From: Monoplex corrugatus
Taxonomy: Eukaryota > Mollusca > Gastropoda > Littorinimorpha > Ranellidae
Assembly: GCA_030674185.1 (NCBI GenBank)
Contig: JAPXFY010000026.1
Coordinates: 55,001,169-55,065,168, forward strand
Length of the DNA: 64,000 nucleotides
Direction: 5' to 3'
Translations under genes and position numbers: made by a program
In this document: positions 16,529-64,000 of the stretch, one piece after another
Position numbering within the stretch: position 1 is the stretch's first letter
How the letters are laid out: each line of letters opens with the position of its first letter
The notes under the pieces: generated by a model
The model's input: only the letters and a program-made list of their open reading frames with translations
Databases searched by the model: none
What the model was told of the DNA's origin: nothing

Positions 16529-16640
16529 CTATGTATGTACATGTGTGTGTGTGTGTGCGTGCGTGTGTGTGTGTGTGTGTGTGTATGTGTGTGTACACAC
16601 ATATATATATGTATGTAAATATACATATATATATATACTG
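16444..16640. repeat. Compound (CA)n...(GT)n...(TA)n inverted microsatellite
   Basis: A CA array (about 16476-16526) is followed after about 15 bp by a GT array (16541-16595) and then TATATA, so the two halves are inverted complements able to fold into a long hairpin. It lies 35 bp upstream of the truncated LINE copy A. Confidence 0.95.
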
Positions 16641-16676
16641 CTTCTACCGTTATTTCTTATATTGTTATATAAGAAG

Positions 16677-24903: not shown

Positions 24904-26026
24904 TTAACTGTCAAGCAATTCAATATGAGATTCCAACCATTTTAGAAGTTTAGCTTCCTTTGATTTTCTCTGCTTTTCTGCCAGTGTGTTGAATGTGTAC
25001 ATGAAAGGATTAATTGCAGAGTTTAGGGGCAAAACAAAGATGGCCAAGGCCACATTCACCTCTCCAGGAATGGGAATGCCAGCCAGTGCCAAAAATCCAC
25101 ACAATCCAATGGGAAACCAGCACATAAAATCTGTGACAGCAACAGTGATCAGGCGTCGGGCTATGGTTATGTCTCGTGACACTTTGGTCGTGTTGGATGT
25201 CATGGTATTCTTCTGTACGGACCAGTAGATGAAGGCTTGACCAGCTGAAATCATTACAAACAAAATAAAATTGAAAACAATCAAAACACTTACGGAATAA
25301 AATCTTCCTTTGAAATCTCGCCTGGTAACTGGAAGAGGAATACAGATACCTGTCTGACTGTAAAACTCCCAACGTGCTGTCACTGGAAGCAAAGGCAACA
25401 AAGCAAGAAACCAACCAACCACCCAAGTCAACGCACAAGCCACAAATGCTGAAATCTTTTCAAATCGTAAGGTACTGAAAGGAAAACGAAGAACAATAAA
25501 CCGATCCAGAGTGATAAGCCAGATGACTACAGCTGATACTTCACTAGACAACAGAGAGAGAAAACCAGCCATCTTACAGGCCACGCTCCTCGTCCATGTC
25601 TCATCATAATGGAGATATATACCACGGAACAGTTCATCAGCCACTCCAATGATAACAATGTAGACACCCATCAGAAAGTCTGCAACAGTGAGATTGATGA
25701 CAAACACATTGAATCCACTTAAAGAGGTCGTCTTCCATGCACATAAACGTACAACAAAACAAAAGACGTTGCCAGTCAGTGATAAGCAGCTGATCAGCCA
25801 GAGAAACACTCGGTACATTCCTGATTGCAGTAAATCTTCACATGACGAAATCTCGTCTTCTGGAGCGTAGCAAAATCTGCGATCAAATGTATGTGGTAGT
25901 ATTTCATGGCAACACAATTTATAGTTTCCTGTAGATACCACGCTAAGGTGGGTAAGATCCTTGAATAAATCTGATGGAAACGTTTTTACTGGACTACCAT
26001 CCATGTATAACTGGGACAACCGGGTG
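24904..26026 (-). CDS. Receptor A, last LRR and 7TM domain (GRL101-like GPCR)
   Basis: The frame gives the C-terminal 370 or so residues of a rhodopsin-family receptor. A final LRR and Cys-rich flank (YKLCCHEILP) lead into TM1 (VFLWLISCLSLTGNVFCF, residues about 74-94). Then come TM2 with LTVADFLMGVY, TM3 ending LDRFIVL (DRF in place of DRY), and TM7 with NSAINPFMYTF (the NPxxY motif kept). A short basic tail ends ESHIELLDS. These are the features of leucine-rich-repeat GPCRs related to relaxin receptors and snail GRL101. It joins the ectodomain ORF upstream through a one-base frame break in a CCC/GGG run at 26020-26026. It is the best preserved 7TM of the three receptors. Confidence 0.88.
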
Positions 26027-28277
26027 TACACTGAAATCCAACATTGCTGATAGTATGGATGGTAGTAAAAGTTAAGTTTAGTTTCTGCAAGCTGGAGAAC
26101 TTGGACAGAACACTGGTGTCAAATTCTGTCAGTGTAGTGTATGAGAGATCTATCATTCTGAGTGATGTTTGATACAGAAAAGATGAGTCATCAGTGTAGA
26201 GCGAGATGAGAGGATTGTTGGACAGTGACAATGTCTGTAAATTTTGTAAGTTCAAGAAGTTAGTCATGTTGATATGCTGAAGTTTGTTGCCAGAGACATC
26301 AAGAAACTGTAAATTGAACAAGTTCATGTCAGACAAGAGACTCAATGAACACTGGCTAAGAATCAGGCGAATAAGATATGCTGGAGTACTGACAGTAGAT
26401 AGACTCATTCCTGAATCTGTGGCATCCAGAAAACGAAGCTGAGGGAAGAGTGAAACAGAGAACGGTTGGAAACATAAGAAAGTGTGACCTTGACATAAAC
26501 ATTCTGAAGGGCAGGTCACTCCACACAATAATTCATCATCATGCAATGGGCAGTGAGGCCAACCGTCACACAGATAGTCACCATGTACACATATTCGATA
26601 AGATCTGCATCTGAAGAATCCTGGACACATCATGTCTTCACATCCCTCCTCATCCTCGTGGCCCATACAGTCGTACATTCCATTGCATCGTGTGTAGACA
26701 GGAAGACAGTCATTGTACTCGCCAGGACAACGATAGTGGGTGTCTGGACAGGACTCGTTGGATTTCATTGGTGTTGAAATAAAAGAACTGATGCCATCAA
26801 AGTTGACAAGAACAGGAGATGGAATGTATTGGTTATACCATGTATATCTTCCTCTTAGTCTGCCACAGTCTTCTTCATCTGATTGGTCCTGACACTCAAA
26901 GAACATATCACACCTTTTATCAAAAGACACGCACTGACCACTGATGCATGTAAACATGTTGACACAAGGAGGATGCTCACAGAATGATTCATCACTTTTA
27001 TCCGGACAGTCAGATATGAAGTCACACACCAGTGTGTATGACAGTGTTGTGAAGTCATCCCCACATATAAATAGGGGGACAGGAATGGCGTGCTGGTCTG
27101 TAAGATCAAACCTGTTGTGTGTCAATGACAGATTTCCATAAAAAGTACAAGGAGGTGTGAGCCCCTGACCGCACACGCCATACTGATGTGAGCCACACAA
27201 GAGAAATGCATGAGTCACATGGCCATTTGGACACATTGTCAAAGACTGTTGCTTGGTGTGCAGCAAGAGTTGTGGGCTGACTAGTGTTATTGCATCAGGT
27301 TTATACGGCTTACGTCTGGTATTTGTTGTCTTGAATTCACAAATTGCGCTGTATGGATTTTCTTCACCCTCACATGTACCCCAGATAGCTTCCCTTTGAA
27401 AGTTAGTAAAGCATAACTTTACACTTGATTGGCGTCCAATTATTGCTTCAGCCTGAATGGAGTGATAAAGGACAGTCCTTTCATCATTAAGAATGGCCTT
27501 TCTGTAGATATTAGCTAAAGACATGTCAGCAGAATATAATCCAAGTGCAAGGCCCTTGAAAATGTGCACACAGGGTTTTGCGAATTCAAGAAATGCTTCA
27601 TACCAGTCATGCTCACACAGAGGCACTGCAAGCACTCCCCCCAAAGAATGACAGTACTCTCTGGCTCTGTAGTAATGTTTGATTTCGTTACTACGAAATT
27701 CTCGCAGATCGTGTGTGCTGACATATTTGTAGCATTTTTTACAAACTGCCACCAAACCTTGACAGTCAGGACTGCTGAAAAGACAATATTCTGTTTCATC
27801 CTGTCCATCTTCACACTCTGTCCTCAGGTTACAGTCCAAGTGGTGCTGATATGTCGAGTAATGGCCAACAGAACAGTTGAATAACCTACTGGGTAGCATC
27901 TGGGGCACTTCAGTTTTGTAGTGAATAGAAAAGAAGATTTCAAAACAACGTGAGTAATTTGATTTTTTAAACCGAAATTGACGATGATAAGAACTGAGAC
28001 TTAGAGTAAGACTTGCAGTTTTGTAAACTTCCACTTGTTCGAAGTTTTCGTCACGATCATAGAACTTTATGTGCCGTCTGTTAGCGTCATATACATACAG
28101 CTTAAGAACTAGACATGAGGCAAGTTCTGGATTCCAGTCGTTTTTGTAAAATCTCTTGAAACTGACCATGATGGCATGTTCGGCTGGGACAGATACAGTT
28201 CTCCTGACAGTGGAAGAGTTGCTGTGAATATTGTAGATTGCTATCAAGTACCCGGATGATGATGACATGTTCACCAT
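25986..28277 (-). CDS. Receptor A, ectodomain (CUB-like, LDLa, C-type lectin, LRR)
   Basis: A 763-codon frame. Residues 1-120 look like a CUB-type beta domain ending CFEIFFSIHY. LDLa repeats lie at about 133-166, 403-433 (CDFISDCPDKSDESFC), 438-471, 510-546 and 551-585. A C-type-lectin-like domain lies at about 172-315 (YYRAREYCHSLGGVLAVP ... SAICEF). An LRR N-cap (CPSECLCQGHTFLC) is at about 588-602 and LRRs follow to about 750. There is no signal peptide after the first ATG. The frame is open upstream to about 28327, where an AG (ctgtaagacag) could be a splice acceptor, so earlier exons probably exist beyond 28.3 kb. The frame runs out of register at about 26024, one base short of joining the 7TM part. 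The gene is either freshly broken, miscalled in a homopolymer, or a recent pseudogene. Confidence 0.87.
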   Translation of the reverse strand: MVNMSSSSGYLIAIYNIHSNSSTVRRTVSVPAEHAIMVSFKRFYKNDWNPELASCLVLKLYVYDANRRHIKFYDRDENFEQVEVYKTASLTLSLSSYHRQFRFKKSNYSRCFEIFFSIHYKTEVPQMLPSRLFNCSVGHYSTYQHHLDCNLRTECEDGQDETEYCLFSSPDCQGLVAVCKKCYKYVSTHDLREFRSNEIKHYYRAREYCHSLGGVLAVPLCEHDWYEAFLEFAKPCVHIFKGLALGLYSADMSLANIYRKAILNDERTVLYHSIQAEAIIGRQSSVKLCFTNFQREAIWGTCEGEENPYSAICEFKTTNTRRKPYKPDAITLVSPQLLLHTKQQSLTMCPNGHVTHAFLLCGSHQYGVCGQGLTPPCTFYGNLSLTHNRFDLTDQHAIPVPLFICGDDFTTLSYTLVCDFISDCPDKSDESFCEHPPCVNMFTCISGQCVSFDKRCDMFFECQDQSDEEDCGRLRGRYTWYNQYIPSPVLVNFDGISSFISTPMKSNESCPDTHYRCPGEYNDCLPVYTRCNGMYDCMGHEDEEGCEDMMCPGFFRCRSYRICVHGDYLCDGWPHCPLHDDELLCGVTCPSECLCQGHTFLCFQPFSVSLFPQLRFLDATDSGMSLSTVSTPAYLIRLILSQCSLSLLSDMNLFNLQFLDVSGNKLQHINMTNFLNLQNLQTLSLSNNPLISLYTDDSSFLYQTSLRMIDLSYTTLTEFDTSVLSKFSSLQKLNLTFTTIHTISNVGFQCTPGCPSYTWMVVQ

Positions 28278-36560: not shown

Positions 36561-38421
36561 ATACACACGTGCGCGCGCGCGCGCGTGCACACCTCAAACT
36601 AAATTTCTCGAGTTTTTTTTTCATTCTTGTCTCAATCGTAATTTCAATGCTTGTAGCAGTCTTATTCCTTGTGCTTTTCTGTCGTCTTTGTGTAGCAACT
36701 GTCCACATGTACAGGAGTGGATTGAGTGCGGATCGAAGTGGTAACATGAACACATTCACCACCACATTGATTTTGTCTGATTTGGCAACTCCACTTGAGG
36801 CCAGCACATTGGTCAAGCCAAGTGAGAACCAACAGGCAGCGTCTGTTACAGCCAGTTTTATCAACAGGTAGGCTGAAGAATAAACTGCTCTGTTTGTGGA
36901 ATCAACGCATATTCTGTATTTGGGTATATGCCTGTAGATAACAATTTGACCAGATAAACACACGATGCATTCAAAAGCCACAATCACTGTGAATCACTTG
37001 AATTCTTGATTGGAATTGTATTGATCAAATAAAGCTAGATGACACATGTCAGACTGAACATCAAGGCCCCATTGTGACAGTCCAGGAACAAAAGATATCG
37101 CTGACAACAAAGTTCCAACAGTCCATGCTACTGCACACGCTACAGCTGTTGTACGTTTATTGAATCTCCATCTGCTTAAAGGGAAACACAAGACGATGAC
37201 GTAATCTAATGTAATGAACAAGAGGATTAGAACTGACACTTCACTGGACAGAAGGGACAGAAAGCCAGCCGTCTTGCAGGTCAAACTATTGGTCCATGCC
37301 TTTTCAAAGTAGATAAATCGTCCAAGGAAAGTTTCATTAGCCACAATGATTATCATGACATAGATTCCCATACACACGTTAGCTAAAAGCAAATTGATAA
37401 CAGATATCATGAAACAGTTTCCAAAGGACATATTTATCACGAGTGAAGCCATGAAACAAAACAAATTCCCTAAAAGAATAAAAACGCTGTTCAGCAATAA
37501 CACAGTCTCGAACAATTTGTTTGGCAATATATTTTGACACACAGACAGCACAGGTTCTGGTCTTAGACACCTGATCTCACTTAAATGTTTAGGAAGTAAT
37601 GTTTTACAACAAAACCTGCAGTTTGATGAAAAGAAAGATCGTAAATAATTTTGTCCCAATAGTAAATCCAAAGGAAAGTTGACCACTGGGTTTCCCCTTA
37701 TGTCTAATTCTTTCAGTTGTGGGAAACAGGTAAAGCCTTTACTCTGTATAGTTTTAATGGCTGAAAATGATAAGTTCAGACTGTTCACGTTAAGAAAGTA
37801 GCTAGACAATTTCACATCAAAGACTTCAAGGTGTGTTTCTGACAAGTCAATTATCTTCAGTGTGTAATACACGTGTTTAAATGTGCTTCTTAGAGATTTG
37901 AGGGGGTTCTTTGCCATTATCAAAGTCCTTAAATTCAACAATCGTATAAAAACGTCCATTATTGATGGTTACCAGTTTGTTATTGCTCAGATCAAAGAGT
38001 TGCAGGTTGGGAAGCTTTACACCTGATATATTACTCAAAGAACAATATGAAAGATTCAAACTAATAATATATGTATTATTACTGAGATTATTCAGGGTCA
38101 TACCTGAACCTGTGGCGTCCAAATAGAGAAGATAAGGGAAGAGGTCAGCAAGAAAAGACCCAGAGCATAGGAATGAGTAACCTTGACACAAACAACCTTC
38201 AGGACAAGTCATGTCACAGAACCATTCATCATCACGTCGTGGACACTGACCCCAGCCATCACACAGATGATCTCCGTGTACATGAACTCTTGAAGCTCGA
38301 ATTGGGAAGAAACCTGACCACGTCAGTGTCTCACAGTCTTGTTCATCTTCACCATAAGAACAGTCAGAAAATCCATTACATCGAGTATAGACAGGGAGCC
38401 AATACAACCATTCAGCTGTAC

Positions 38422-39840
38422 ACTGATAATGAGATCCAAAACAAGAGTGACTGCCTGCGCCCAAGCAAACACAAACCAGAAGAACAAGAAAATCAATGTA
38501 AGCGCATCTCCAACAAGACAACACAAAACAAAACAAGCGCAAATTTTCGGCCAACTAGCCTTTGTCAAGCGCGAACGCACGGTCACAGACAAATCACAGA
38601 CACCAAACAATGGATAATAAAAACGGGACTAAAAACTTCCCTGCCGCCTCGTCCAGTGGGTAAGAGATGGAATGCCCATGTCATCATGAGCAGTAGTAAG
38701 AAAAGGGGAGAGGGGAGGCAACTGTGATGTCAAAAGGGAAGTGAGATAAGTTCTGCAATTTTGAGAAGTGGCCATGCTATATCGGTATAGCCCTGTTCTG
38801 AAGAAGGCACAGGGCAAGAGCCAAGAGATAAGGGAGTAGATTGTGCCCGGTGCCAAGAATCTGGTAGGCGTGGGAACAGGAAGAGACATGAAACGGCATG
38901 TCTGAATTTTGTTACTCATGGTTTGTCGTTAAGACCATGTGGTTTGCGTGTTCCAAGTTTATTTATGAGGTGGGATTCTCTGTCTTTCCTGTCTATGGTG
39001 CTGTTATTGTGTAGAAGCCACAGACCTTTCACTCGGATGTCATTGATTGAGTGGTCTGATTGGTTGAAGTGATTGGGGATAGTTTTATCCCTTTGGTGGC
39101 GGATATCAGCCAAGTGTTCTTTGAAACGTGTGTCAAGAGTGCGTCCAGTTTCACCAATATACAATTGGGAACATTTAGAGCAGCTGATCAAGTAGACAAT
39201 GTTATAAGTTTGACAGTTGAAATGTTTTGTAATTCTCATATGAGATTTGGGGCCTTTGACTGTGGTGGCTGAGCACAAGAAAGGACAAGTCTTGCATTTA
39301 GGTTTGTTGCATGGAGAGGTTCCTGGAGGTTGGCTGACTGGTTTGCTGAGATTGGAATGCACCAGCAAGTCGCGGAGATTGGTGTCTCTCTTGTAGACGA
39401 GCAAAGGGCGCTTGTCAAAGGTTTCACCTGTAGTGGGACTGGATCGCAAAATGTTCCAGTTGGACAAGATGATCCTTTTTATGAGGTGCACGGACGGGTG
39501 GTAAACTAGACTGAGGACTGGCCGATCCTCTGTGACAGCTTTGGGCTTTGAATGGAGGGCATTTGGCCGAGAGACAGAGCTGACTTTTTTCCGGGCTTCA
39601 TTGATGACCTCGGGTGGGTAATGTCTGCGCAGGAAAAATCTAGTCATTTCAACTGCTTTGTCCTGAAAATTGTCTTCGTCTGAGCAGAGGCGTCGTAGTC
39701 TCAAGAACTGCGAGTAGGGAATGCTGTTTCTGGTGTTGGAAGTGTGAGATGATTGGTAGTCCAGGTAGGAATGTGAATCTGTAGGTTTGTAGTGGACTGT
39801 AGTGACTAGTTGTTCAGATTGAAGGGAAACTGATAATGAG
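38422..39840 (-). mobile_element. Penelope-like element, 5'-truncated, with 12-bp target duplication
   Basis: The 12-bp sequence ACTGATAATGAG occurs at 38422-38433 and 39829-39840, exactly bounding a segment absent from the otherwise colinear receptor C. Read minus, the insert starts in the C-terminal part of a Penelope-like RT (HYKPTDSHSYLDYQSS, IPYSQFLRLRRLCSDED). It continues through a CxxxxCxxC linker (CNKPKCKTC) and a GIY-YIG endonuclease (VYLISCSKCSQLYIGETGRT ... RFKEHL), stops at 38916, and has a 480-bp 3' UTR. RT catalytic motifs are absent through 5' truncation. The 3' UTR shares sequence with the 13.3-kb fragment. Confidence 0.88.
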
Positions 39841-40610
39841 TCAGGACAAGACTCGTTAGCTTTCATCATCTGCTGAGTAAAATAACTTGTACCATCTACA
39901 TTGATAAAAAGTCTGTGCTTTTCATCTGCTTCAGAGACGGGACTTCCCCTCTGGTTAACACATAGCATTTCATCAGAATCATCCAGACAGTCAGAGAGTT
40001 CATTACATCGCTGGCTGATCAAAACACACTGATCATTGGTGCATAGAAATCCATTACAGGAAGAATGTTCACAGAACGACTCATCACTATTGTCTGGACA
40101 GTCCTGTCTGAAGTCACACGCCAGAGTGTAAGTTACTGTGGTCATATCATCATCACATTTAAACATGGCAATTCTGTATGCAGCACTTTCTTCAGGAAGA
40201 ATCAGTGTATTGTTCATGTTTAGTGCTTGTGTCAGAAAAACACAGTGACGTAAATGTGTAGTTTCTTCACAGTAACTATCTGTTTCACATGACAAAAACG
40301 TGTGCATCACATGACTCTCTGTACACTTATACAAGACCTGTGTTGATTGTGTAAAGATAAATTTGGGTGAAAGTAAGAGTGGCAACTGAACTGTCTGAAC
40401 AGGAAACTCGTTCTGTGTTTGTGTTTTTACTTCGCACAATATGTCCATGACTACGACGGATTTTGCTTCAGATGTACCAGAATATGTCGTCAATGATAAA
40501 AGAGAAAGAGCATGGACAATCCTTGAAGGACTATAAACTAAATCTGATCTGATGTGATTCATGTTGTAGATCAATGTTTTGTCTGACCATTTCCGAAACT
40601 TACTATACAT
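38916..40610 (-). CDS. Chimeric ORF: receptor B ectodomain fused to Penelope GIY-YIG domain
   Basis: One unbroken 564-codon frame crosses the insertion boundary. Residues 1 to about 256 are receptor sequence: the end of the C-type-lectin domain and two LDLa repeats (CDFRQDCPDNSDESFC and CNELSDCLDDSDEMLC). Residues about 257-564 are Penelope-like: RT C-terminus, CNKPKCKTC linker and GIY-YIG nuclease with YIGETGRTLDTRF. The fusion arises because the insertion is in the same orientation and frame. Upstream receptor frames are broken, so a signal peptide is not attached in frame. Whether any transcript or protein exists is unknown; it is probably an accident of insertion. Confidence 0.75.
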   Translation of the reverse strand: MYSKFRKWSDKTLIYNMNHIRSDLVYSPSRIVHALSLLSLTTYSGTSEAKSVVVMDILCEVKTQTQNEFPVQTVQLPLLLSPKFIFTQSTQVLYKCTESHVMHTFLSCETDSYCEETTHLRHCVFLTQALNMNNTLILPEESAAYRIAMFKCDDDMTTVTYTLACDFRQDCPDNSDESFCEHSSCNGFLCTNDQCVLISQRCNELSDCLDDSDEMLCVNQRGSPVSEADEKHRLFINVDGTSYFTQQMMKANESCPDSLSVSLQSEQLVTTVHYKPTDSHSYLDYQSSHTSNTRNSIPYSQFLRLRRLCSDEDNFQDKAVEMTRFFLRRHYPPEVINEARKKVSSVSRPNALHSKPKAVTEDRPVLSLVYHPSVHLIKRIILSNWNILRSSPTTGETFDKRPLLVYKRDTNLRDLLVHSNLSKPVSQPPGTSPCNKPKCKTCPFLCSATTVKGPKSHMRITKHFNCQTYNIVYLISCSKCSQLYIGETGRTLDTRFKEHLADIRHQRDKTIPNHFNQSDHSINDIRVKGLWLLHNNSTIDRKDRESHLINKLGTRKPHGLNDKP

Positions 40611-41956
40611 GAAAGGAATAGAGTTCCATCATGAAGTATAACCCATTAGTAAGGAATTGAATTTTTTTATTTCAAATATGGGAAGGAGATCCTTTTGTTC
40701 CCTTCTTGTTTTGATTGAAGCTAATTCCCCTCCCATCTTCTGGCACTCGTATGCTGAAAACACAGCAGATATATCAGTTTCTAATCGAATAAATTTAAAA
40801 CACTTGTTACGTGAAGTTACCAGACCCTGACAACCAGCACTGCTGAAGGGACAGTGTTCTGTTTCATCCTGTCCATTTTCACACTGTCTTCAAGTTACAG
40901 TCCAGGTAATGCTGAAAGCTGGGATAATAATCTACAGAACAGTTGAAAAGGCCACCGGCTAAAATTTGGGGTTGTTCAGTTTTAGAATGAAAAGAAAATA
41001 TGAATTTCATGGTGTGAACTGTAAAATATGTGTGAGGATTACTGACGTAGAACTGAAGACGTGATGTAAGAAAGACGTTTGCGGGTCTGACTTCTACATC
41101 ACAAACACGTACAACAACTTGTTGATTTCTATTTGGTTCGTTGTAGATTAGTTCTGTCCACACATTCTTACATTTCTCATATACATACCAAGTTGTTTGG
41201 AAGCTTAGCATAATGACAGCTAGATGTTATCAGATCTTTCCTAATACCTTTGGAAGATTTTATGTTTATTCTATGAAATGGTAATTTTACATACCCAGAA
41301 TGTATCGACGCATATCTTAAAAGAAAAGTGTACACCTTAATGGCTGTGATGTCAATTTTCACTTTAGAAACATTTAAGTGTGATAGAAACATATGGTTTG
41401 TTGAAGCCACGATAAACTTTTCTTGAACAGAGTCGTATTCACATTGAACTCTGAAAAGAGGAACATAATCAGAATCTATTATCACGGTTTTCCAATACAT
41501 AAGATCACATCAAAATGATAGCCGTTGAATATGGACAAATACAAGCATACTCTGTGGCACTGTTATATGCAGACGACAAAATGTAGTGGAATCACCACAT
41601 GTTCCATACACTGCCCCTTGGCTTTCTGTGAAGTGTGATAAATCATTCTCACAGTCTGACACATTGACCTGTTTCAGTTCTACATCTGTTATGTTGTTGT
41701 TCATGAGATATTCCACACCTGGACAGATGTCAGTGATGTGACGTGGACCAGCAGTGGTGTAGATGTTCCTGTTCGTTATGTTGGTTTGATGTGGGATACG
41801 ATCAGCACAGAGCACAGGAACACAATTCATCAATGCACATCCAAGCAAGAACATAGAGCAATTGCCGACTAGACCATGTAGTCTGGTGTGTCTTAGAGTT
41901 GCTATATCATCCATGGTATGTCTTGAAGCTGCTACTTCATTCAAAGTATCCATATT

Positions 41957-42575
41957 ATCTCTCTGTCGAAACAACTGCAAAACTTGTTCTCTCCTTCATA
42001 ATGTCTCGCATTGTCTATTGCAATTCACTCCTGTCTGGTCTTCCTGCCTCCACCATTCACATCCTACAGCGCATTCAAAACAATGCTGCACGCCTTGTAC
42101 TCAAAAAAAAAAAAAAAGCTGACCACATATCTCCTCCCCTGGCACAACGTCACTGGCTCCCTGTATCAAAGCGCATACAGTACAAACTAGACACCATGTG
42201 CTACAAAAGCCTCAATAACACAGCCCCCAATTACCTGTCAAGCCTACTTGAGATCTATGTTCCCTCCGCTCTGCCTCCGATCCTCTGACTTTTCGCTTTC
42301 CACGCACTAAGCTCAATACCTATGGTCCACGAGCCTTCTCTGTTTCTGGTCCACTCTCCTGGAACAAACTTCCTCTCTCAGTCCGTCAGCAACCTACTTT
42401 TGTCTCCTTCAAGTCCGCTCTCAAAACTCACCTTTTCTCCTCTGCATAGAATCCTGATCTCACTCAACCCCCTCTGCAGCCTGTCTCCACTCGGAGGGGA
42501 ATCACATTGTAATATATAATTGTATATAATATGCTCTCTATAAATTTCCATTGCTTCTCCCCATTTATAGCCATG

Positions 42576-42642
<67 letters not shown>

Positions 42643-42768
42643 GGTGGGTGGGTGTGTGTGCGAGCGTGTGTGTGCGTGCGTGCGTGTGTGTCTGTTTCAG
42701 CACTTAGATTTGATTTTATCAAGATTTTGCGCTATATAAATATTGTAATTATTATTATTATTATTATA
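41957..42768 (+). mobile_element. CR1/L2-type LINE 3' fragment, same family as the 60.6-kb element
   Basis: Begins at tatctctctgtcgaaac, equivalent to 63750, and matches that element with few differences ([18 protein letters not shown] ... [13 protein letters not shown] ... [20 protein letters not shown]). It then continues through the C-terminus and 3' UTR to gcgctatataaatattg plus (ATT)n at 42750-42768. A (TG)n array sits in its 3' UTR. It interrupts sequence upstream of receptor B that is continuous upstream of receptor C, so it inserted after, or independently of, the B/C duplication. Confidence 0.87.
42577..42690. repeat. (TG)n / (GGTG)n microsatellite
   Basis: TG array 42577-42633 followed by GGTG and GTGC variants, inside the 3' UTR of the CR1/L2 fragment. 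Confidence 0.96.
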
Positions 42769-42905
42769 GTGTGTCCTGAAGTTTTGCATCATCCACGGGA
42801 TGTCTTAAACCTGTTAGCTCATCCAAGACGTGTCTGAAAAGTTGCCACATCATCCATGGTGTTTCTTAGGTTTGAAACATCATCCATAGTGTGTCAAAAC
42901 TGTGC
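42769..42905 (-). repeat. Degenerate ~30-bp repeats upstream of receptor B
   Basis: Four to five imperfect units, each carrying a catcatccat-type core (minus strand ATGGATGATG) and tgtcttgaagt-type flanks. The receptor B/C start region ([10 protein letters not shown]) is itself one of these units; the matching stretch upstream of receptor C is 59757-59905. Confidence 0.6.
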
Positions 42906-55847: not shown

Positions 55848-57786
55848 TCACTTCTGTTTCAATCGTAATTTCAACGCTTGTAGCAGTCTTATTTGTTGTG
55901 CTTGCTGTCGTCTTTGTATTCCAACTGTCCACATGTACAGGAATGGACTGAGTGCAGACCGAAATGGTAACATGAACACGTTCATGAACATATTGATTTT
56001 GTCTGATTCAGCAACTCCACTTGAGCCTAGGATAATGGTCAGGCCAATTGAAAACCAACAGACAGCTTCTGTTACAGCCAGTTTTATCAACAGGTAGGCT
56101 GAAGAATAAACTGCTCTGTTTGTGGAATCAACGCAAATTCTGTATTTGGGTATATGCCTGTAGATAGTTATTTGGCCAGCCATGAACGAAAAACACAGAA
56201 TGCAGTCAAATGTCACAATCACTGTGAACCACTTGGATCTTTGGCTGGAACTGTACTGATCAGATAAAGCTAGATGACACAGACCAGATTGAACATCAAG
56301 GCCCCAGTGTGACAGTTCAGGAAGAAAAGGTATTACTGACAACAATGTTCCAACAATCCATGCTACTGCACACGCTACAGCCATTGAACCTTTATTGAAT
56401 TTCCATCTGGTCAAGGGAAAACATAGGATGACGATATAATCCAGTGTAATGAACCAGAGGATTAGAACTGCGACTTCACTGGACAGAAGAGACAAAACCC
56501 CAGCCATCTTGCAAGTGAAACTGCTCGTCCATGTCTTTTCAAAGTAGATATACTGTCCAAGGAAAATTTCGTTTGCTACTATGATTACTATTACATAGAT
56601 TCCCATACACATATTTGCAAAGTGCAGATTGACAATGACTATCATGAAACTGTCTCCAAAGAGTATGTTCATTACGAGTGAAGCCATGAAACAAAATGAA
56701 GTCCCTAAAATAATAAACAAACCGACTAACAACAACACAATCTTGAACAATTTGTTTGGAAATATATCTTGACACATAGACAGCACATGTTCAGGTGCTA
56801 GGCACCTGATCTCACTTACATGTTTAGGAAGTAATGTTTTACAACAAAATCTGTAGTTTGAAGAAAAGATGGATCTTAAATTATGCAATCCTGACAATAC
56901 ATTCAGAGGAAAGTCGTTTATTATGTTTCCCCTAACGTCTAGTTCTTTCAGTTGTGGGAAACACTTAAAGCCTGTACTCTCTATAGTTTTAATCGATGAA
57001 AAAGACAAGTTCAGATTGTTCATGGAAAGAAAGTAGATAGACGATTCAACATCAAATACTTCAAGCTGTGTTTCTGACAAGTCAATTGCTCTCAGAGTGT
57101 AATACACGTGGTTAAATGTGTTTTTCAGGGATGTGAGAGGATTCTTTCCAATTATCAAAGTCCTTAAATTCAGCAGTCGTATAAAAACGTCCATATTGAT
57201 ACTTACCAGTTTGTTATTGCTCAGATCAAGGAACTGCAGATTGGGAAGCTCCACATCTGATATGTTAGTGAGGGAACAATAGGAAAGACTCAGACTAATA
57301 AGATATGTATTGTTACTGAGATTATTCAGGGTCATACCTGAACCTGTGGCATCCAGGTAGCAAAGACTAGGAAAGAGGTCAGCAAGAAAAGACACAGAGC
57401 ATAGGAATGAGCAACCTTGACACAAACAACCTTCAGGACAGGTCATGTCACACAGCCATTCATCATCACGTCGTGGACACTGACCCCAGCCATCACACAG
57501 ATGATCTCCATGAACATGAACTGTTGAAGCTCGACACTGGTAGAAACCTGACCACGTCAGTGGCTCACAGTCTTGTTCATCTTCACCATAAGAACAGTCA
57601 GAAAATCCATTACATCGAGTATAGACAGGGAGACAGTACAGCCATTCATATGTACAATGAAAATGAGTGTCAGGACAAGACTCGTTAGCTTTCATTATCT
57701 GCTGAGTAAAATAACCTGTACCATCTACATTGATAAAAAGTCTGTGCTTTTCATCTGCTTCAGAGACGGGACTTCCCCTCTGGTTA
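55848..57786 (-). CDS. Receptor C, LDLa-LRR-7TM part (GRL101-like GPCR)
   Basis: A frame of about 645 codons. LDLa repeats lie at residues about 39-75 (CLPVYTRCNGFSDCSYGEDE) and 82-115. An LRR N-cap (CPEGCLCQGCSFLC) is at 118-131, LRRs at 140-300, a Cys-rich C-cap (YRFCCKTLLP) and a 7TM domain at about 348-620. TM3 ends LDYIVIL, so the DRY arginine is replaced. TM7 reads ALSPFLYMW, losing the Asn of NPxxY. The C-terminal tail is basic (RRQQAQQIRLLQALKLRLKQ). The frame is out of register with the ectodomain ORF at about 57785, where C is two bases shorter than B. It is otherwise uninterrupted. Confidence 0.86.
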
Positions 57787-59748
57787 GACAATCATTTCAT
57801 CAGAATCATCCAGACAGTCAGGGAGTTCATTACATCGCTGGCTGATCAAAACACACTGATCATTGGTGCATAGAAATCCATTACAGGAAGAATGCTCACA
57901 GAACGACTCATCACTATTGTCTGGACAGTCCTGTCTGAAGTCACACGCCAGAGTGTAAGTTACTGTGGTCATATCATCATCACATTTAAACATGGCAATT
58001 CTGTATGCAGCACTTTCTTCAGGAAGAATCAGTGTACTGTTCATGTTTAGTGCTTGTGTCAGAAAAACACAGTAACGTAAATGTGTAGTTTCTTCACAGT
58101 AACTATCTGTTTCACATGACAAAAACGTGTGCATCACATGACTCTCTGTACACTTATACAAGACCTGTGTTGTTTGTGTAAAGATAAATTTGGGTGAAAG
58201 TAAGAGTGGCAACTGAACTGTCTGAACAGGAATCTCGTTCTGTGTTTGTGTTTTTACTTCGCACAATATGTCCATGACTACGACGGATTTTGCTTCAGAT
58301 GTACCAGAATATGTCGTCAATGATAAAAGAGAAAGAGCATGGACAATCCTTGAAGGACTATAAACTGAATTTGATCTGATGTGATTCATGTTGTAGATCA
58401 ATGTTTTGTCTGACCATTTCCGAAACTTACTATACATGAAAGGAACAGAGTTCCATCCTGAAGTATACCCTATTAGTAACGAATTGAATTTTGTTATTTC
58501 AAATATGGGAAGGAGATCTTTTTGTTCCCTTCTTGTTTTGATTGAAGCTAATTCCCCTCCCATCTTCTGGCACTCGTATGCTGAAAACACAGCAGATATA
58601 TCGGTTTCTAATCGAATATATTTAAAACACTTGTTACGTGAAGTTACCAGACCCTGACAACCAGCACTGCTGAAGGGACAGTGTTCTGTTTCATCCTGTC
58701 CATTTTCACACTCTGTCTTCAAGTTACAGTCCAGGTGATGCTGAAAGCTGGGATAATAATCTACAGAACAGTTGAAAAGGCCATTGGCTAAATTTGCGGG
58801 TTGTTCAGTTTCAGAATGAAAAGAAAATATGAATTTCATGGTGTGAACTGTAAAATATGTGTGAGGATTACTGACGTAGAACTGAAGGCGTGATGTAAAA
58901 AAGACGTTTGCGGGTCTGACTTCTACATCACAAACACGTACAACGATTTGTTGATTTCTATTTGGTTCGTTGTAGATTAGTTCTGTCCACACATTCTTAC
59001 ATTTCTCATATTCATACCAAGTTGTTTGGAAGCTTAGCATAATGACAGAGCTAGATGTTATCAGATCTTTCCTAATACCTTTGGAAGATTTTATGTTTAT
59101 TCTATGAAATGGTAATTTTACATACCCAGAATGTATCGACGCATATCTTAAAAGAAAAGTGTACACCTTAATGGCTGTGATGTCAATTTTCACTTTAGAA
59201 ACAACATTTAAGTGTGATAGAAACATATGGTTTGTTGAAGCCACGATAAACTTTTCTTGAACAGAGTCGTATTCACATTGAACTCTGAAAAGAGGAACAT
59301 AATCAGAATCTATTATCACGGTTTTCCAATACATAAGATCACACCAAAATGATAGCCGTTGAATATGGACAAATACAAGCATACTCTGTGGCACTGTTAT
59401 ATGCAGACGACAAAATGTAGTGGAATCACCACATGTTCCATACACTGCCCCTTGGCTTTCTGTGAAGTGTGGTAAATCATTCTCACAGTCTGACACATTG
59501 ACCTGTTTCAGTTCTACATCTGTTATGTTGTTGTTCATAAGATATTCCACACCTGGACAGATGTCAGTGATGTGACGTGGACCAGCAGTGGTGTAGATGT
59601 TCCTGTTCGTTATGTTGGTTTGACGTGGGAAATGATCAGCACAGAGCACAGGAACACAATTCATCAATGCACATCCAAGTAAGAACATAGAGCAATTGCC
59701 GACTAGACCATGTAGTCTGGTGTGTCTTAGAGTTGCTATATCATCCAT
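57784..59748 (-). CDS. Receptor C, N-terminal ectodomain (signal peptide, CUB-like, LDLa, C-type lectin)
   Basis: The frame starts [15 protein letters not shown] and runs 654 codons. A hydrophobic stretch at residues 17-37 ([20 protein letters not shown]) fits a signal peptide. Two CUB-like beta regions span about 90-200 and 205-312. LDLa repeats lie at about 326-357, 588-617 and 622-651; a C-type-lectin-like domain is at about 365-498. The frame ends early, after CLDDSDEM, because of a net 2-base loss relative to receptor B, just before the next LDLa pair. With the downstream frame the receptor would be about 1,300 residues. I chose this ATG because it precedes the signal-like segment and is shared with B. 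Expression would start inside the degenerate upstream repeat. Confidence 0.86.
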   Translation of the reverse strand: MDDIATLRHTRLHGLVGNCSMFLLGCALMNCVPVLCADHFPRQTNITNRNIYTTAGPRHITDICPGVEYLMNNNITDVELKQVNVSDCENDLPHFTESQGAVYGTCGDSTTFCRLHITVPQSMLVFVHIQRLSFWCDLMYWKTVIIDSDYVPLFRVQCEYDSVQEKFIVASTNHMFLSHLNVVSKVKIDITAIKVYTFLLRYASIHSGYVKLPFHRINIKSSKGIRKDLITSSSVIMLSFQTTWYEYEKCKNVWTELIYNEPNRNQQIVVRVCDVEVRPANVFFTSRLQFYVSNPHTYFTVHTMKFIFSFHSETEQPANLANGLFNCSVDYYPSFQHHLDCNLKTECENGQDETEHCPFSSAGCQGLVTSRNKCFKYIRLETDISAVFSAYECQKMGGELASIKTRREQKDLLPIFEITKFNSLLIGYTSGWNSVPFMYSKFRKWSDKTLIYNMNHIRSNSVYSPSRIVHALSLLSLTTYSGTSEAKSVVVMDILCEVKTQTQNEIPVQTVQLPLLLSPKFIFTQTTQVLYKCTESHVMHTFLSCETDSYCEETTHLRYCVFLTQALNMNSTLILPEESAAYRIAMFKCDDDMTTVTYTLACDFRQDCPDNSDESFCEHSSCNGFLCTNDQCVLISQRCNELPDCLDDSDEMIV

Positions 59749-59756
59749 GGTATGTC

Positions 59757-59905
59757 TTGAAGCTGCTATTCATTCAAAGTGTGTTTTGAAGCTACATTAT
59801 CCATAGTGTGTCCTGAAGTTCTGCATCATCCACGGTGCTTAAACTTGTTAGCTCATCCAAGACGTGTCTGAAAAGTTGCCACATCATCCATGGTGTTTCT
59901 TAGGT
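59757..59905 (-). repeat. Degenerate ~30-bp repeats upstream of receptor C
   Basis: Four to five imperfect units, each with catcatccat or catccacgg-type cores, homologous to 42769-42905. Homology between the B and C loci ends at about 59913. Confidence 0.6.
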
Positions 59906-59913
59906 TTGAAACA

Positions 59914-60114
59914 TTGTTACATTTCAAAAAAGAGAAACTCAATGTGAAAGTGCGAATGCTGATAAGAGAAATGTGACGTCAAAATGTGTCTGTCGATTCA
60001 GCTACTCTCCGTGCTCGTACTTGAAGATTGGTTTGTGTTTCACTCGATAATGAATCGATAATATTTGTTTTGGTTTATGCTAACACTGAAAATATATGTT
60101 TAAGTTTGATTTCG
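59914..60114. other. No gene seen; between receptor C duplication boundary and heat-shock-type promoter
   Basis: AT-rich sequence, not shared with the receptor B locus. It contains one tgacgtca word at 59971-59978, a perfect CRE-type palindrome, whose relevance is unknown. Confidence 0.4.
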
Positions 60115-60186
60115 CTGTATGGAAATATGTAGAATCTTTTCGAACAATCTGGAAATGACAAGAAAATTGTAGAATACCTTAGACCT

Positions 60187-60204
60187 TTCTAGAATGTTCC
60201 GGAA
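60187..60204 (+). promoter_or_regulatory. Heat-shock element 1 (four perfect units)
   Basis: TTCTAGAATGTTCCGGAA is four alternating 5-bp nTTCn/nGAAn units with exact spacing, the consensus for binding of trimeric heat shock factor. Confidence 0.8.
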
Positions 60205-60248
60205 ATCGTAAACAAATTTAATCTGTACAATGATTGGCTAGAATTGCA

Positions 60249-60277
60249 GAACATTCCAGAAAGGGAAGGTTCGAGAA
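60249..60277 (+). promoter_or_regulatory. Heat-shock element 2 (three units plus two)
   Basis: GAACATTCCAGAA at 60249-60261 is three perfect units; TTCGAGAA at 60270-60277 adds two further units after an off-phase gap. Confidence 0.75.
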
Positions 60278-60315
60278 CGTGGCTATGATTGGCTAAAAAT
60301 CTAGGGGAAAGCCGA

Positions 60316-60333
60316 GAATATTCGGGAATTTTC
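60316..60333 (+). promoter_or_regulatory. Heat-shock element 3 (four perfect units)
   Basis: GAATATTCGGGAATTTTC is four perfect alternating units, ending 8 bp before the TATA box. Confidence 0.8.
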
Positions 60334-60341
60334 CATGATGT

Positions 60342-60349
60342 TATAAATA
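60342..60349 (+). promoter_or_regulatory. TATA box of heat-shock-type promoter
   Basis: TATAAATA (followed by g) on the plus strand. Two inverted CCAAT boxes (tgattggct) lie at 60231-60239 and 60286-60294 between the heat-shock elements. The arrangement of CCAAT boxes and heat-shock elements close to TATA is that of inducible hsp70-type promoters. Transcription would start at about 60370-60380 and run toward the LINE. Confidence 0.72.
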
Positions 60350-60609
60350 GAGTGAGTAGATGTCGCGCCAGCAGGCAACAAAAGTGTGTGTGGTGTTTTA
60401 CAGTGATTTTATCGTGGTTCTATTTGATTTCATGCATTGAATTTTGTATCAGTTTGTTGCTACACGGTGATGTAAATATTTTTTAAAACTTGTGAATATT
60501 TTACCAGATAATCTGATTTTAAAGTTTTTATACCTACTTTTCATCATTTTAATTCAGCCGCTCAAGTCGGACATTTTATCTGTGAACTGTGTTTACATTT
60601 TAGCCTACT
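60350..60609 (+). other. Putative transcribed leader
   Basis: No clear ORF or element motif. If the TATA box is used, this is 5' leader sequence leading into the LINE. Whether it belongs to a host heat-shock gene or to the LINE 5' UTR cannot be decided from one copy. Confidence 0.4.
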
Positions 60610-60723
60610 GTGTTCCCAACGCTACAGCTTTCCCAAACCTTTGTGTTCTCTGGTTTTAAGTGTTGTGAACTGACCAACCCACACACCAACCTGCAAGTAT
60701 CTTCCTCTCCTGACTGGCTCGCA

Positions 60724-61398
60724 ATTATGGACCCGTCTTTTATAAAACAAATTGGACTGACACTTTTTAAACACAGCAAGTGCTATCTCGGTGGAGGCGT
60801 CTACCAGCGCATACGAATACTGGGATTGTGTCCTAAGCCTCGCACTGTGCGATCCTGTCGTGGTGGACGTCTCCACCAACTCTGGCACAATCTGCCTCCT
60901 GCTGTGCCAGTCCGACACCACTTTTCGTCTTCTGCTTCTTCGTCTCCTCCACTGCCCCTGCACTCGACCTTGCTGCTGCAAACTTCGTCTCCTCCTCTGC
61001 CGTCTTCGCCTTCGCCTTCTGTCCCGCCGGTGCCGCCTTCGCCTTCTGTCCCGCCGGTGCCGCTTTCGTCTTCTGTCTCGCTGGCGCTGCCCTCATCTTC
61101 TGTCCTGCTGGTGCTGCCTTTGTCTTCTGTCCCACTGGTGCCACCTTCGTCTTCTGTCCTGCGGGTGCCTCCTTCGTCTTCTGTCCCGTCGTTGCTGCCT
61201 TCATCTTCTGCCCTGCTGGTGTTGCCTTCGTCTTCTGTCCCGTCGTTGCTGCCTTCATCTTCTGCCCCGCTGGTGTTGCTTTCGTCTTCTGTCCCGTCGT
61301 TGCTGCCTTCATCTTCTGCCCCGCTGGTGTCGCCTTCGTCTTCTGTCCCGTCGGTGCTGCCTTCATCTCCACCTCGGCCGCCACATTGTGATAACTAA
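60724..61398 (+). pseudogene. N-terminal region of the CR1/L2 LINE with repeat expansion
   Basis: From MDPSFIKQIGLTL the frame includes RIRILGLCPKPRTVRSCRGG. I recall such a basic 'R.RRG.RGG' stretch upstream of the endonuclease in this LINE group. It then enters a 24-bp tandem repeat, where it becomes Ser/Pro/Val/Leu-rich, and stops at 61398. A different frame (60791-61414) leaves the repeat as GRHIVITKTMPF and stops in a T5 run (61408-61412), next to the endonuclease frame that starts NAQSTCTDGKADV. So the N-terminal part is separated from the endonuclease by at least one frame change. Function of this part is unknown; it may be ORF1-like or an ORF2 leader. Confidence 0.5.
61005..61376. repeat. 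24-bp minisatellite in coding region, about 15 copies
   Basis: Unit gccttcgtcttctgtcccgc plus cggt with many substitutions (period 24, sometimes alternating as 48). Because 24 is a multiple of three, several frames stay open through it on both strands, including a Lys/Ala/Thr/Gly/Gln frame on the minus strand that I do not treat as a gene. Confidence 0.9.
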
Positions 61399-64000
61399 AA
61401 CTATGCCTTTTTAACGCTCAGTCAACATGCACTGATGGCAAAGCCGATGTCATTGCTGACTTTATCGCAGATGAGCATGTTGACATTGCTTTTATCACCG
61501 AAACATGGCTTAACCCCCTTGGTCATGAACCTATACATGCGAGTCTCACTCCGAGTGGTTACAGGCTTGCTTCTTTCCATCGCTCATCCCGAGGTGGTGG
61601 TATCGCCATCCTCTACAACGACTCACTCCATTCCCGCCTGTCTTTCTCGCAGTCTCTGCCTTTCTCCCATCCTTCTTTCGAGCACGTTGAAGTATCCTTC
61701 CAATCCACCCCTTACCCCATCACCTTCTCCTGTGTCTATCAACCTCCACCTAGCTCTGCCAACAAGCTCACCACATCCATGTTTCTCTCTGACTTTGATC
61801 AACTTCTTTATTACTACTGCCTCTTACCTGGAAATCTCATCATTCTAGGTGACATCAATGTCCACTATGACAACACTCACCGTTATGACACAAGACATAT
61901 CATCAACTCTCTGTCCAATCACAATATGACTCAACACATTTCTGAACCAAACCATCAAAAAGGTCACATTCTTGACTGGATCATTTCTCGTGATCACCAC
62001 AATTCAGCTACTGATAACTGCTTAGTTCTTTCCACCCGTCTAACTTCAGCCCTTCCATCTGACCACTCTGCAATTCTCTGTTCTCTTGACATTCCTCCTC
62101 CTTCCCGTACCATGCGCACAGTGACTCGATGCAATCTCAAATCTATTGACCTCTCCACATTTTCATCTGATGCCTCCCGCCTCCTTTCTGAAAAGTCACA
62201 TAACCTTGCCGATGAATTCTATACTACTCTCCACCATCTTCTGGACACTCATGCTCCAGCCACAACCTGTCTTTTACCTGACCACCCCCCTACCCCCTGG
62301 CTCACTCATGAGATTGCCTGTGCAAAACGTGCCCGCCTCAGAGCAGAGCGCCGCTGGCGCAAATCCAAACTCACTGTACATAGGCAACTTTTCCAAGCCT
62401 CTAAAACAAAAGTATCCACCCTCATTGCACCTGCAAAAACAAGCTATTTCCAAACCAAAATCCTGAATGCCTCTTCTTCAAAAGAACTCTTTACAACCAT
62501 GAATCATCTCCTTGGCACACGAAAAGATTTGCCTCTCCCAACAAAACACACAAATGAAGAACTCCCATCTGTATTCTCCAAGTATTTCACCACCAAAATA
62601 CAAACTCTTCGTGACAGGCTTGACAAGACACCCTGTCAACCATGCCCACCTGACCCTTCCTTCTCTGGCACACCTCTTACTACTTTTACCCCAGTCTCAC
62701 AAGAAGAAATTCTCAACACAATCAGATCCATGTCGTTCAAAACCTGCGAACTGAATCCTCTTCCAGGTTCTCTCTACTCTGACTGTCTCCCTACGCTCCT
62801 CCCATTCATCACTGACATCATCAACACTTCTCTCCAAACTGGAACTGTCCCAGATTCTTTCAAGTCTGCTATTGTTCACCCTCTCCTCAAGAAATACAAT
62901 TTAGACCCAAATGAACTGAAAAATTACCGGCCTATCTCTAATCTCTCTTTCTTGTCAAAACTGCTTGAAAAAGTTGTCCTCAACCAACTGAACTCTCACC
63001 TGTCTGCCAACAATCTCCTCAATCCTTTCCAGTCAGCCTACCGCCAGTGCCATAGCACTGAAACTGCCTTGCTACACATTCTCAACAATCTCCTCCTTGC
63101 AACTGATACTGGAAAAGTCTCTCTCCTCACACTCCTTGATCTGTCTGCAGCCTTTGATACCACTGATCATGGTATTCTCCTTTCTAGACTTCATCATACT
63201 TTTGGCATCTCTGACATTGCTCTCTTCTGGTTCACTTCATATCTTTCAAACAGAAAACAAACTGTTCTCATCAATGGCACTTACTCTCAACCTGCATACC
63301 TGACCTGTGGTGTTCCACAAGGATCTGTCCTTGGCTCTGTTCTTTTCACTCTTTACACCTCCCCCCTGTCCACCATCATCAACTCCCACTCTATAAAACA
63401 CCACTTCTATGCTGATGACACCCAACTTCAAGACAGTGACTCACCTGATAATATACAGCGCTTGTTGACTCGTACCACTGAGTGTTACTCGGACATTAAG
63501 AACTGGATGACGTTCAACAAACTTCAGCTTAATGACGACAAGACAGAAGCTATCCTCATTGGCACCCGTCAGAAACTTTCTCAGCTGCCTCCTCTTTCTC
63601 TCCCATTATGTAACACATCAGTCCCAATTTCTGATTCAGCTAAAAACCTTGGTGTCTGCATTGACTCTACCCTCTCCATGAACAACTTTGTTTCTCAAAC
63701 TGCCAGATCTTGCTACTATCATCTCCATCGTATAAGGCTGATCAGGAAGTATCTCTCTGTCGAAACAACTGCAAAACTCGTTCTCTCCTTCATAATGTCT
63801 CGCATTGACTATTGCAATTCACTCCTGTCCGGTCTTTCTGCCTCCACCACTCACATCCTACAGTGCATTCAAAACAATGCTGCACGCCTTGTACTCAAAA
63901 AGAAAAAAGCTGACCACATATCTCCTCTCCTGGCACAACTTCACTGGCTCCCTGTATCAAAGCGCATACAGTACAAACTAGACACCATGTGCTACAAAAG
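61392..64000 (+). CDS. CR1/L2 LINE endonuclease-reverse transcriptase (3' end outside window)
   Basis: I translated this frame by hand and found no stop from 61392 to 64000, about 869 codons. The endonuclease part shows DIAFITETWLNP (catalytic Glu), SSRGGGIAILYND, ILGDINVHYDN and LPSDHSAILCSL (terminal SDH). A linker follows. The RT begins KNYRPISNLSFLSKLLEK and shows SAYRQCHSTETALLHILNN, LLDLSAAFDTTDHGILLSRL, GVPQGSVLGSVLFTLYT and HHFYADDTQLQDS (YADD box). [31 protein letters not shown] and [13 protein letters not shown] come after. All catalytic residues appear intact. The product would nick target DNA and prime reverse transcription of its RNA. It lies downstream of the heat-shock-type promoter. 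The true start codon is uncertain because of the frame break in the preceding T run. Confidence 0.92.

Follow-up and report, generated by a model that had tools for sequence, protein, structure and literature searches.

A heat-shock-type promoter in front of a snail LINE lies in the U3 region of a repeated Ty3/gypsy-type LTR

LTR retrotransposons that are activated by heat are well known in plants. Clusters of strong heat-shock elements (HSEs of the 4P and 3P types) reside in the LTRs of ONSEN/COPIA78 and other heat-responsive Brassicaceae COPIA elements and have been kept through the evolution of these families (PMC5059998, in part; see also PMC3907296), a feature that recurs in the snail LTRs described below. 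For animals, the literature searched offers Helitrons with HSEs, a retroviral LTR bound by HSF1 and weakly predicted HSF sites in fly LTRs. Helitrons hold 61.4% of the HSEs of Caenorhabditis elegans (PMC6927752, in the part at hand), and a further source available in part, PMC12810828, whose reference 93 is this Helitron paper, states that activation of transposons by the heat-shock machinery of the host has been shown in plants and animals. The copia and gypsy LTRs of flies carry weakly predicted HSF sites, unlike HSE arrays (PMC10745035, in part). A temperature-dependent gypsy element of an animal need not use HSF: expression of Cer1 occurs at 15 °C, is absent at 25 °C and keeps this dependence in an hsf-1 mutant (PMC3315495, in part). 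Within the open-access papers searched, some of them by title or abstract, we found no animal LTR retrotransposon with an HSE array.

Here we analyse a stretch of 64,000 nucleotides from the gastropod Monoplex corrugatus (C26:55001169-55065168; called the window), in which a group of HSEs stands directly in front of a LINE. An initial annotation had offered two explanations: that the LINE entered the leader of a host heat-shock gene, or that its family starts further upstream and carries the HSEs itself. We conclude that the promoter is very probably the U3 of a Gmr1-like Ty3/gypsy LTR family predicted to be driven by HSF, and that it incidentally provides one LINE with a heat-shock promoter.

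HSE cluster and TATA box

The window holds four runs of perfect alternating GAA/TTC units in 5-bp steps, and outside these four no perfect run of three or more units occurs within its 64 kb. Together with two inverted CCAAT boxes and a TATA box, they form the following array (agreement values refer to 30 LTRs compared below).

60187-60204, no strand: HSE1, four perfect units (TTC GAA TTC GAA)
60233-60237, minus strand: inverted CCAAT box (ATTGG)
60249-60261, no strand: HSE2, three perfect units
60265-60277, no strand: HSE3, three perfect units, forming with HSE2 a 29-bp compound element
60288-60292, minus strand: inverted CCAAT box (ATTGG), 99% agreement
60316-60333, no strand: HSE4, four perfect units, proximal to the TATA box
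60342-60349, plus strand: TATA box TATAAATA of the LTR, 99.6% agreement

The heat-shock-type promoter that had been described immediately upstream of the LINE is therefore present, with HSEs, both CCAAT boxes (ATTGG at 60233 and 60288) and the TATA box all in place, the last as TATAAATA 8 bp downstream of HSE4. The earlier count of HSEs was right for the two four-unit elements and one short for the three-unit elements, of which there are two (60249 and 60265), one having been overlooked.

Shuffling was used to gauge the cluster. Among 2,000 dinucleotide-preserving shuffles of 60115-60380, runs occurred at a mean of 0.01 and never more than once per shuffle, and 60 shuffles of the whole window gave a mean of 0.97 runs of at least three units and no four-unit run. 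Thus, a single three-unit run in a sequence of this size is meaningless and the cluster is meaningful. The HSE cluster is real and far above chance. An Rfam scan of 55-64 kb returned no match.

The LINE, the LTR and their junction

The structures that meet at this promoter, and one site elsewhere in the window that bears on them, are as follows.

42766-42880, plus strand: empty site in a paralogous tract, matching 59803-59914 and continuing without the LTR
59915-60354, plus strand: 5′ part (U3 and TATA box) of the LTR of a Ty3/gypsy-type retrotransposon, cut on its 3′ side by the LINE
60350-60354, no strand: junction of LTR and LINE, with a few bases of overlap
60352-64000, plus strand: 5′ end and body of a LINE of putative CR1/L2 type, delimited by copy alignment and Pfam domains and extending beyond the window end
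60727-61398, plus strand: LINE ORF1, an ATG-led frame that holds a tandem repeat and whose N terminus resembles, by eye, that of the relatives P0006 and P0012
61395-63998, plus strand: LINE ORF2, endonuclease and reverse transcriptase, open to the window end

The LINE encodes an APE-type endonuclease (PF03372, Exo_endo_phos) and a reverse transcriptase (RT; PF00078, RVT_1) in one ORF; the CR1/L2 assignment is a putative clade label taken over from the earlier reading. That reading had called the endonuclease-RT frame intact, which is true from about 61395 to the window end, the 3′ end of the LINE lying outside the window. ORF1 uses a different frame from the endonuclease-RT frame and is separated from it by a stop codon, and its tandem repeat (60990-61390) is open in several frames on both strands. 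The description of the LINE as young finds little support, with the closest other copies 95-96% identical over the 5′ part compared. A 5′-truncated copy of the same LINE lies at 41950-42770 in the paralogous upstream tract; it is about 95% identical over the common part and carries a TG microsatellite and a 3′ tail of ATT repeats. Scans of IMG/VR and GTDB returned only distant relatives of the LINE and nothing on the promoter.

The 5′ boundary of the LINE family was located by searching the host genome (3.02 Gb) with 60000-61500, which gave 40 scored copies including that of the window. We examined the 5′ ends of 25 of the 39 other copies, as 26 loci (one copy appearing twice). In 22 of these 25 copies similarity begins between 60349 and 60357, and the flanks seen upstream differ from copy to copy. 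For the 14 further copies, the starts as listed are 60348-60357, in one case through a second piece. The remaining three of the 25 begin at 60315, 60343 and 60338; the extra bases of the latter two probably match by chance and show no match to the LTR. The LTR was found beside none of the 26 loci (25 distinct copies). From the common start, the differing flanks and the lack of the LTR at the 26 loci, it follows that the LINE family starts at about 60352 and that the HSE region lies outside the family.

A start further upstream, with HSEs belonging to the LINE family itself, is almost certainly not the case. The single observation in its favour comes from the relative that begins at 60315 (L010), which carries a perfect four-unit HSE equally far upstream; this HSE sits, by translation, in the antisense RT frame of another LINE and is a coincidence. 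The 22 copies with a common start, the 14 others listed at 60348-60357 and the 26 loci lacking the LTR all oppose this reading. Three-unit runs also occur upstream of three other copies: L019 has one at 1,640 bp, L022 has two (243 and 160 bp) and L027 has one at 639 bp, none of them in LTR sequence. The proposal that the promoter is part of the LINE family is thus rejected, and the statement that the LINE did not bring the promoter along is borne out.

The sequence upstream of the LINE is a repeat in its own right. A genome search with 60060-60372 gave 897 candidates, of which 40 were scored (92-100% identity, window counted). In the 39 others similarity ends at 60347-60360, mostly at 60352-60354, which is the point where the LINE begins in the window. 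At most of 19 other loci, the match extends about 145 bp upstream of 60060 and reaches about 330 bp past 60352. The 440-bp window segment 59915-60354 corresponds, with 96.4% identity, to positions 1-440 of a complete LTR (L035) of 767 bp, which begins with TGTTACA and ends with GTGACA, and thus has TG...CA ends. This LTR contains AATAAA in its 3′ half; across the copies that motif is uninformative, since most of them already include it within the TATA sequence. Clear 5-bp target duplications flank the LTR at 10 of 20 loci, and a two-LTR copy on C23 has GACCA on both sides. Between 5′ and 3′ LTRs, one pair shows 32 differences over 752 aligned bases and another 31 over 673 (4-5%); in a third pair, on C8, the 5′ LTR is interrupted.

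A downstream host gene, of the hsp70 type, into whose leader the LINE inserted would also account for such a promoter. A search for hsp70 (73 of 1,510 candidates scored) listed six long matches, on C1, C2 (two), C7, C9 and C22, and the upstream regions of five hsp70 genes were compared with the LTR. Two of them, on C7 and C1, have the same TATA box, TATAAATA, with a perfect HSE of four to five units starting 32 bp upstream and two CCAAT boxes; the HSE closest to this same TATA sequence in the complete LTR L035 begins 26 bp upstream of it. The other three hsp70 regions have CCAAT boxes but nowhere three perfect units in a row, so a heat response does not require perfect HSEs, nor do such HSEs prove one. 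None of the five regions matches the LTR in sequence, and hence the likeness between LTR and hsp70 promoters is one of layout only.

It is very improbable that the window promoter is the leader of a host heat-shock gene. In support of it stand the layout shared with two hsp70 promoters and the fact that the contig beyond window position 64000 (L014:4170-9901) reads N, a stretch that covers the LINE 3′ end, the remainder of the LTR and any downstream gene. Against it, the region is the U3 of a repeat that has many copies, LTR ends and target duplications, rather than a single-copy promoter joined to an hsp coding sequence; the five hsp70 upstream regions lack its sequence; and none of the matches listed, with 73 of 1,510 candidates scored, is near C26:55.06 Mb, the closest on C26 being at 7.0 Mb.

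Neither of the two earlier explanations holds, and the junction reads as that of a LINE inserted into an LTR. This nested order is deduced from the 5′ junction, since the LTR second half and the LINE 3′ end fall in the N stretch; the second half of the LTR would lie beyond the LINE.

A receptor frame of the LRR/LDLa type (57784-59748, minus strand) lies head to head with the LTR, its ATG 166 bp away. Copies of this large LDLa/LRR receptor gene occur at 57784-59748 and 55848-57791 (both minus), 24904-28277 and 36994-41980; the copy beside the LTR breaks into two reading frames at about 57785 and is perhaps a pseudogene. The paralog at 41980 has no LTR, and a truncated LINE sits at the matching place. 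The window therefore offers a natural pair of neighbouring receptor paralogs, one with the LTR and one without. In one long minus-strand frame (38916-40610), receptor LDLa sequence is joined to a GIY-YIG domain of the kind found in Penelope-like elements, probably as the result of a nested insertion. Two near-identical stretches of LINE-like frames (16600-18080 and 20400-21838), about 3.7 kb apart, represent either a recent duplication or an assembly repeat. Protein relatives of the receptors and the LINE at 44-65% identity, over the whole or part of the query, include named matches from Nucella, Babylonia and Littorina, in line with a gastropod host.

The retrotransposon family and its HSEs

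Internal regions of the family were found with a pattern that joins the LTR end to TGG and has 17 matches in the genome. Eleven of these loci bear a U3, four have only the other LTR end and two lack an LTR. The sequence that follows the LTR is identical or almost identical in 12 of the 17 matches and starts with TGGGGGCCAAGCC, one or two bases after the LTR. The Cer1 primer site of the tRNA-Pro type is TGGGGGCCGAACC (PMC3315495, in part), and its resemblance to TGGGGGCCAAGCC suggests that the latter is a primer-binding site.

Six stretches were fetched from the 17 matches, and five contain pieces of gag-pol: a SCAN-like capsid, a CCHC gag, integrase, RVT_1 and RNase H. All five regions are broken by stops, frame changes and deletions. 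The piece of integrase core is below the Pfam cut-off and matches retroviral and Ty3 integrases of solved structure. The reading order is gag, integrase and RT in one stretch (L071), and SCAN, H2C2, rve and RVT_1 in a relative (P0201). With terminal repeats that have TG...CA ends, target duplications, a putative primer site and gag-pol pieces, the family has the features of an LTR retrotransposon.

Integrase ahead of RT, taken alone, is also the order of copia elements. Copia elements match other models, such as RVT_2. Membership of the ONSEN family proper (Ty1/copia) was rejected, the pieces matching RVT_1, RT_RNaseH and Integrase_H2C2 instead. SCAN domains derive from Gmr1-type gag. Gypsy elements with integrase before RT make up the Gmr1 clade (PMC6238403 and PMC8220671, each in part), and the snail family, placed by domain order rather than by a tree, appears to be a Gmr1-like Ty3/gypsy family.

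Two further observations concern the coding sequences of such elements. The gag region (L072:440-2194, and also L074 and L075) contains a very long tandem repeat that codes for EKRRQQEIE-like repeats, is open in more than one frame and varies in length among copies. A predicted protein of another snail, Babylonia areolata (P0130, LOC143289631), combines the same receptor-type N terminus with integrase, RT and RNase H in a Gmr1-like order, a fusion from which it follows that Gmr1-like elements may also sit in receptor genes of that species.

We compared HSEs across 30 LTRs, namely the 20 most similar to the window (window counted) and 10 of the 11 U3-bearing LTRs beside the end motif, so that the sample represents copies most like the window or bearing a chosen motif. 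Agreement with the commonest base is 98.8% over the 30 unit bases (GAA/TTC) of HSE1-HSE3, versus 91.9% for the 14 linker bases of these elements, 95.1% for the remaining U3 and 95.7% for further GAA/TTC triplets in U3. Of 344 shifted masks, none attains 98.8%, and the best comes close at 98.4%. Two or more runs, each of at least three units, are kept in 20 of 20 LTRs and in 11 of 11 U3-bearing LTRs beside the end motif, among them one LTR at 81.5% identity. For HSE1, a run of four or more units is present in 19 of the 20 LTRs; HSE4 is complete in 8 of the 20 and belongs to only part of the family (window copy counted in both cases). The 3P and 4P HSEs lie in U3 near the TATA box, as in ONSEN-like elements, and their conservation is the pattern that selection on HSF sites in source elements would be expected to leave.

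The number of such LTRs was estimated from short patterns. The compound pattern of HSE2 and HSE3 occurs 305 times in the genome (control, 1), and the 100 matches listed all look LTR-like there by eye, a judgement on the matches themselves rather than on LTR flanks checked one by one. A 20-bp anchor around the TATA box with at most two mismatches occurs 676 times (control, 208). These counts indicate several hundred LTR copies. Four pairs of compound HSEs (C2, C4, C6 and C8) lie on the same strand 4-7 kb apart, for example at C4:20346442 and C4:20351885, a spacing that would fit two-LTR copies with HSEs retained in each LTR.

The perfect TTC-first four-unit pattern TTCNNGAANNTTCNNGAA has 778 sites in the genome, and the pattern read backwards has 436. 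Among 42 sites examined from the first 50 in contig order, 28 lie in the LTR (95% interval 50-80%): 10 of 21 in one batch, 16 of 19 in another, and the known loci L045 and L052. Scaling the 14 of 42 sites outside the LTR to the genome gives about 259, a mismatch with the control of 436, which therefore carries no weight. Within the batch of 21, further HSE runs accompany 9 of 10 LTR sites and 0 of 11 non-LTR sites, and one of these 11 is the hsp70 promoter on C1. The LTR family thus seems to hold most of the perfect TTC-first four-unit HSEs of the genome.

Possible heat response and comparison with known systems

If the array functions as its layout suggests, HSF trimers would occupy the U3 under heat or proteotoxic stress and switch the LTR on, and transcription would start about 30 bp past the TATA box, as proposed for ONSEN-type elements (PMC5059998, in part). 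An unrelated LINE of putative CR1/L2 type, its 5′ end complete, appears to have entered one such LTR directly after the TATA box. The LTR promoter in the window is intact; its start would fall at about 60370-60375, some 20 nucleotides into the LINE, so that RNA from the LTR promoter would cover nearly the whole LINE.

The same LTR could be served by a different input. HSEs that answer to constitutive, germline or developmental HSF activity rather than to heat are an unlikely but reasonable alternative, because the conserved units indicate no more than that sites of the HSF type were important to the element, and roles of HSF in development and oogenesis are discussed in PMC10745035 (in the part available). 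Speaking for heat instead, adjacent perfect four-unit and three-unit HSEs correlate with heat induction in plant COPIA elements, according to the accessible portion of PMC5059998.

A somewhat more serious competitor, though still doubtful in our view, is that the HSEs are relics of a dead family, with a promoter that is methylated or otherwise silent and a LINE that is unaffected. The five broken gag-pol regions and the 4-5% divergence of two LTR pairs favour it and caution against assuming that the family is active at present. The HSEs and TATA box of the window copy are intact, however, and solo LTRs can act without internal genes.

Beyond the predicted HSF-driven LTR promoter itself, we tentatively propose, at somewhat less than even confidence, that these LTRs are an animal counterpart of ONSEN. 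A Gmr1-like gastropod family would have been spread by HSF through hsp70-like LTR promoters, come to supply most of the strong HSEs of the genome and offered ready-made heat-shock enhancers to host genes, making the LINE heat-inducible and possibly also the head-to-head receptor gene 166 bp away. Two questions become testable in one species with this LTR family: whether stress sets off bursts of animal retrotransposons through HSF, and whether, in snails, these elements reshape the response to heat shock.

Several described elements share part of this arrangement. In the Gmr1 clade, integrase stands upstream of RT as in the snail family, and the available parts of PMC6238403 and PMC8220671 do not mention a heat-shock promoter. 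Cer1, a gypsy/Ty3 element of C. elegans, has temperature-dependent expression and a similar primer site of the tRNA-Pro type, but it is expressed at the lower temperature, independently of HSF-1, and has E2F sites in its LTRs (PMC3315495, in part). The HIV-1 LTR is bound by HSF1, which raises transcription; in contrast to the snail repeat, this is a retrovirus with an HSF1-binding sequence, rather than a four-element array in a genome-wide repeat (PMC9157408, in part). The LTR retrotransposons TCN3 and TCN12 of Cryptococcus have putative HSEs in the LTR, as here, but are fungal, have one or two such elements and have been measured to mobilize at 37 °C (PMC12810828, in part).

For a stress-responsive LINE in a snail there would be a precedent: nimbus, a non-LTR retrotransposon of Biomphalaria, is placed among stress genes and is co-induced with Hsp70 (PMC3343117, in part). 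The accessible text of that paper describes no promoter with HSEs for nimbus, whose response is its own rather than that of a captured LTR promoter.

Two further parallels are the plant COPIA elements and the nematode Helitrons. ONSEN/COPIA78 is a Ty1/copia element of plants with demonstrated heat induction, whereas the snail family is an animal element of the Ty3/gypsy type known from sequence alone (PMC5059998, in part). Helitrons belong to the DNA transposons; their HSEs influence genes in the neighbourhood, and HSF binding has been shown for them, whereas the HSEs of the snail LTR would serve its own promoter, with HSF binding predicted. In Caenorhabditis as in this snail, one transposon family holds the majority of HSEs, 61.4% in the former (PMC6927752, in part) and 28 of the 42 perfect TTC-first four-unit sites examined in the latter.
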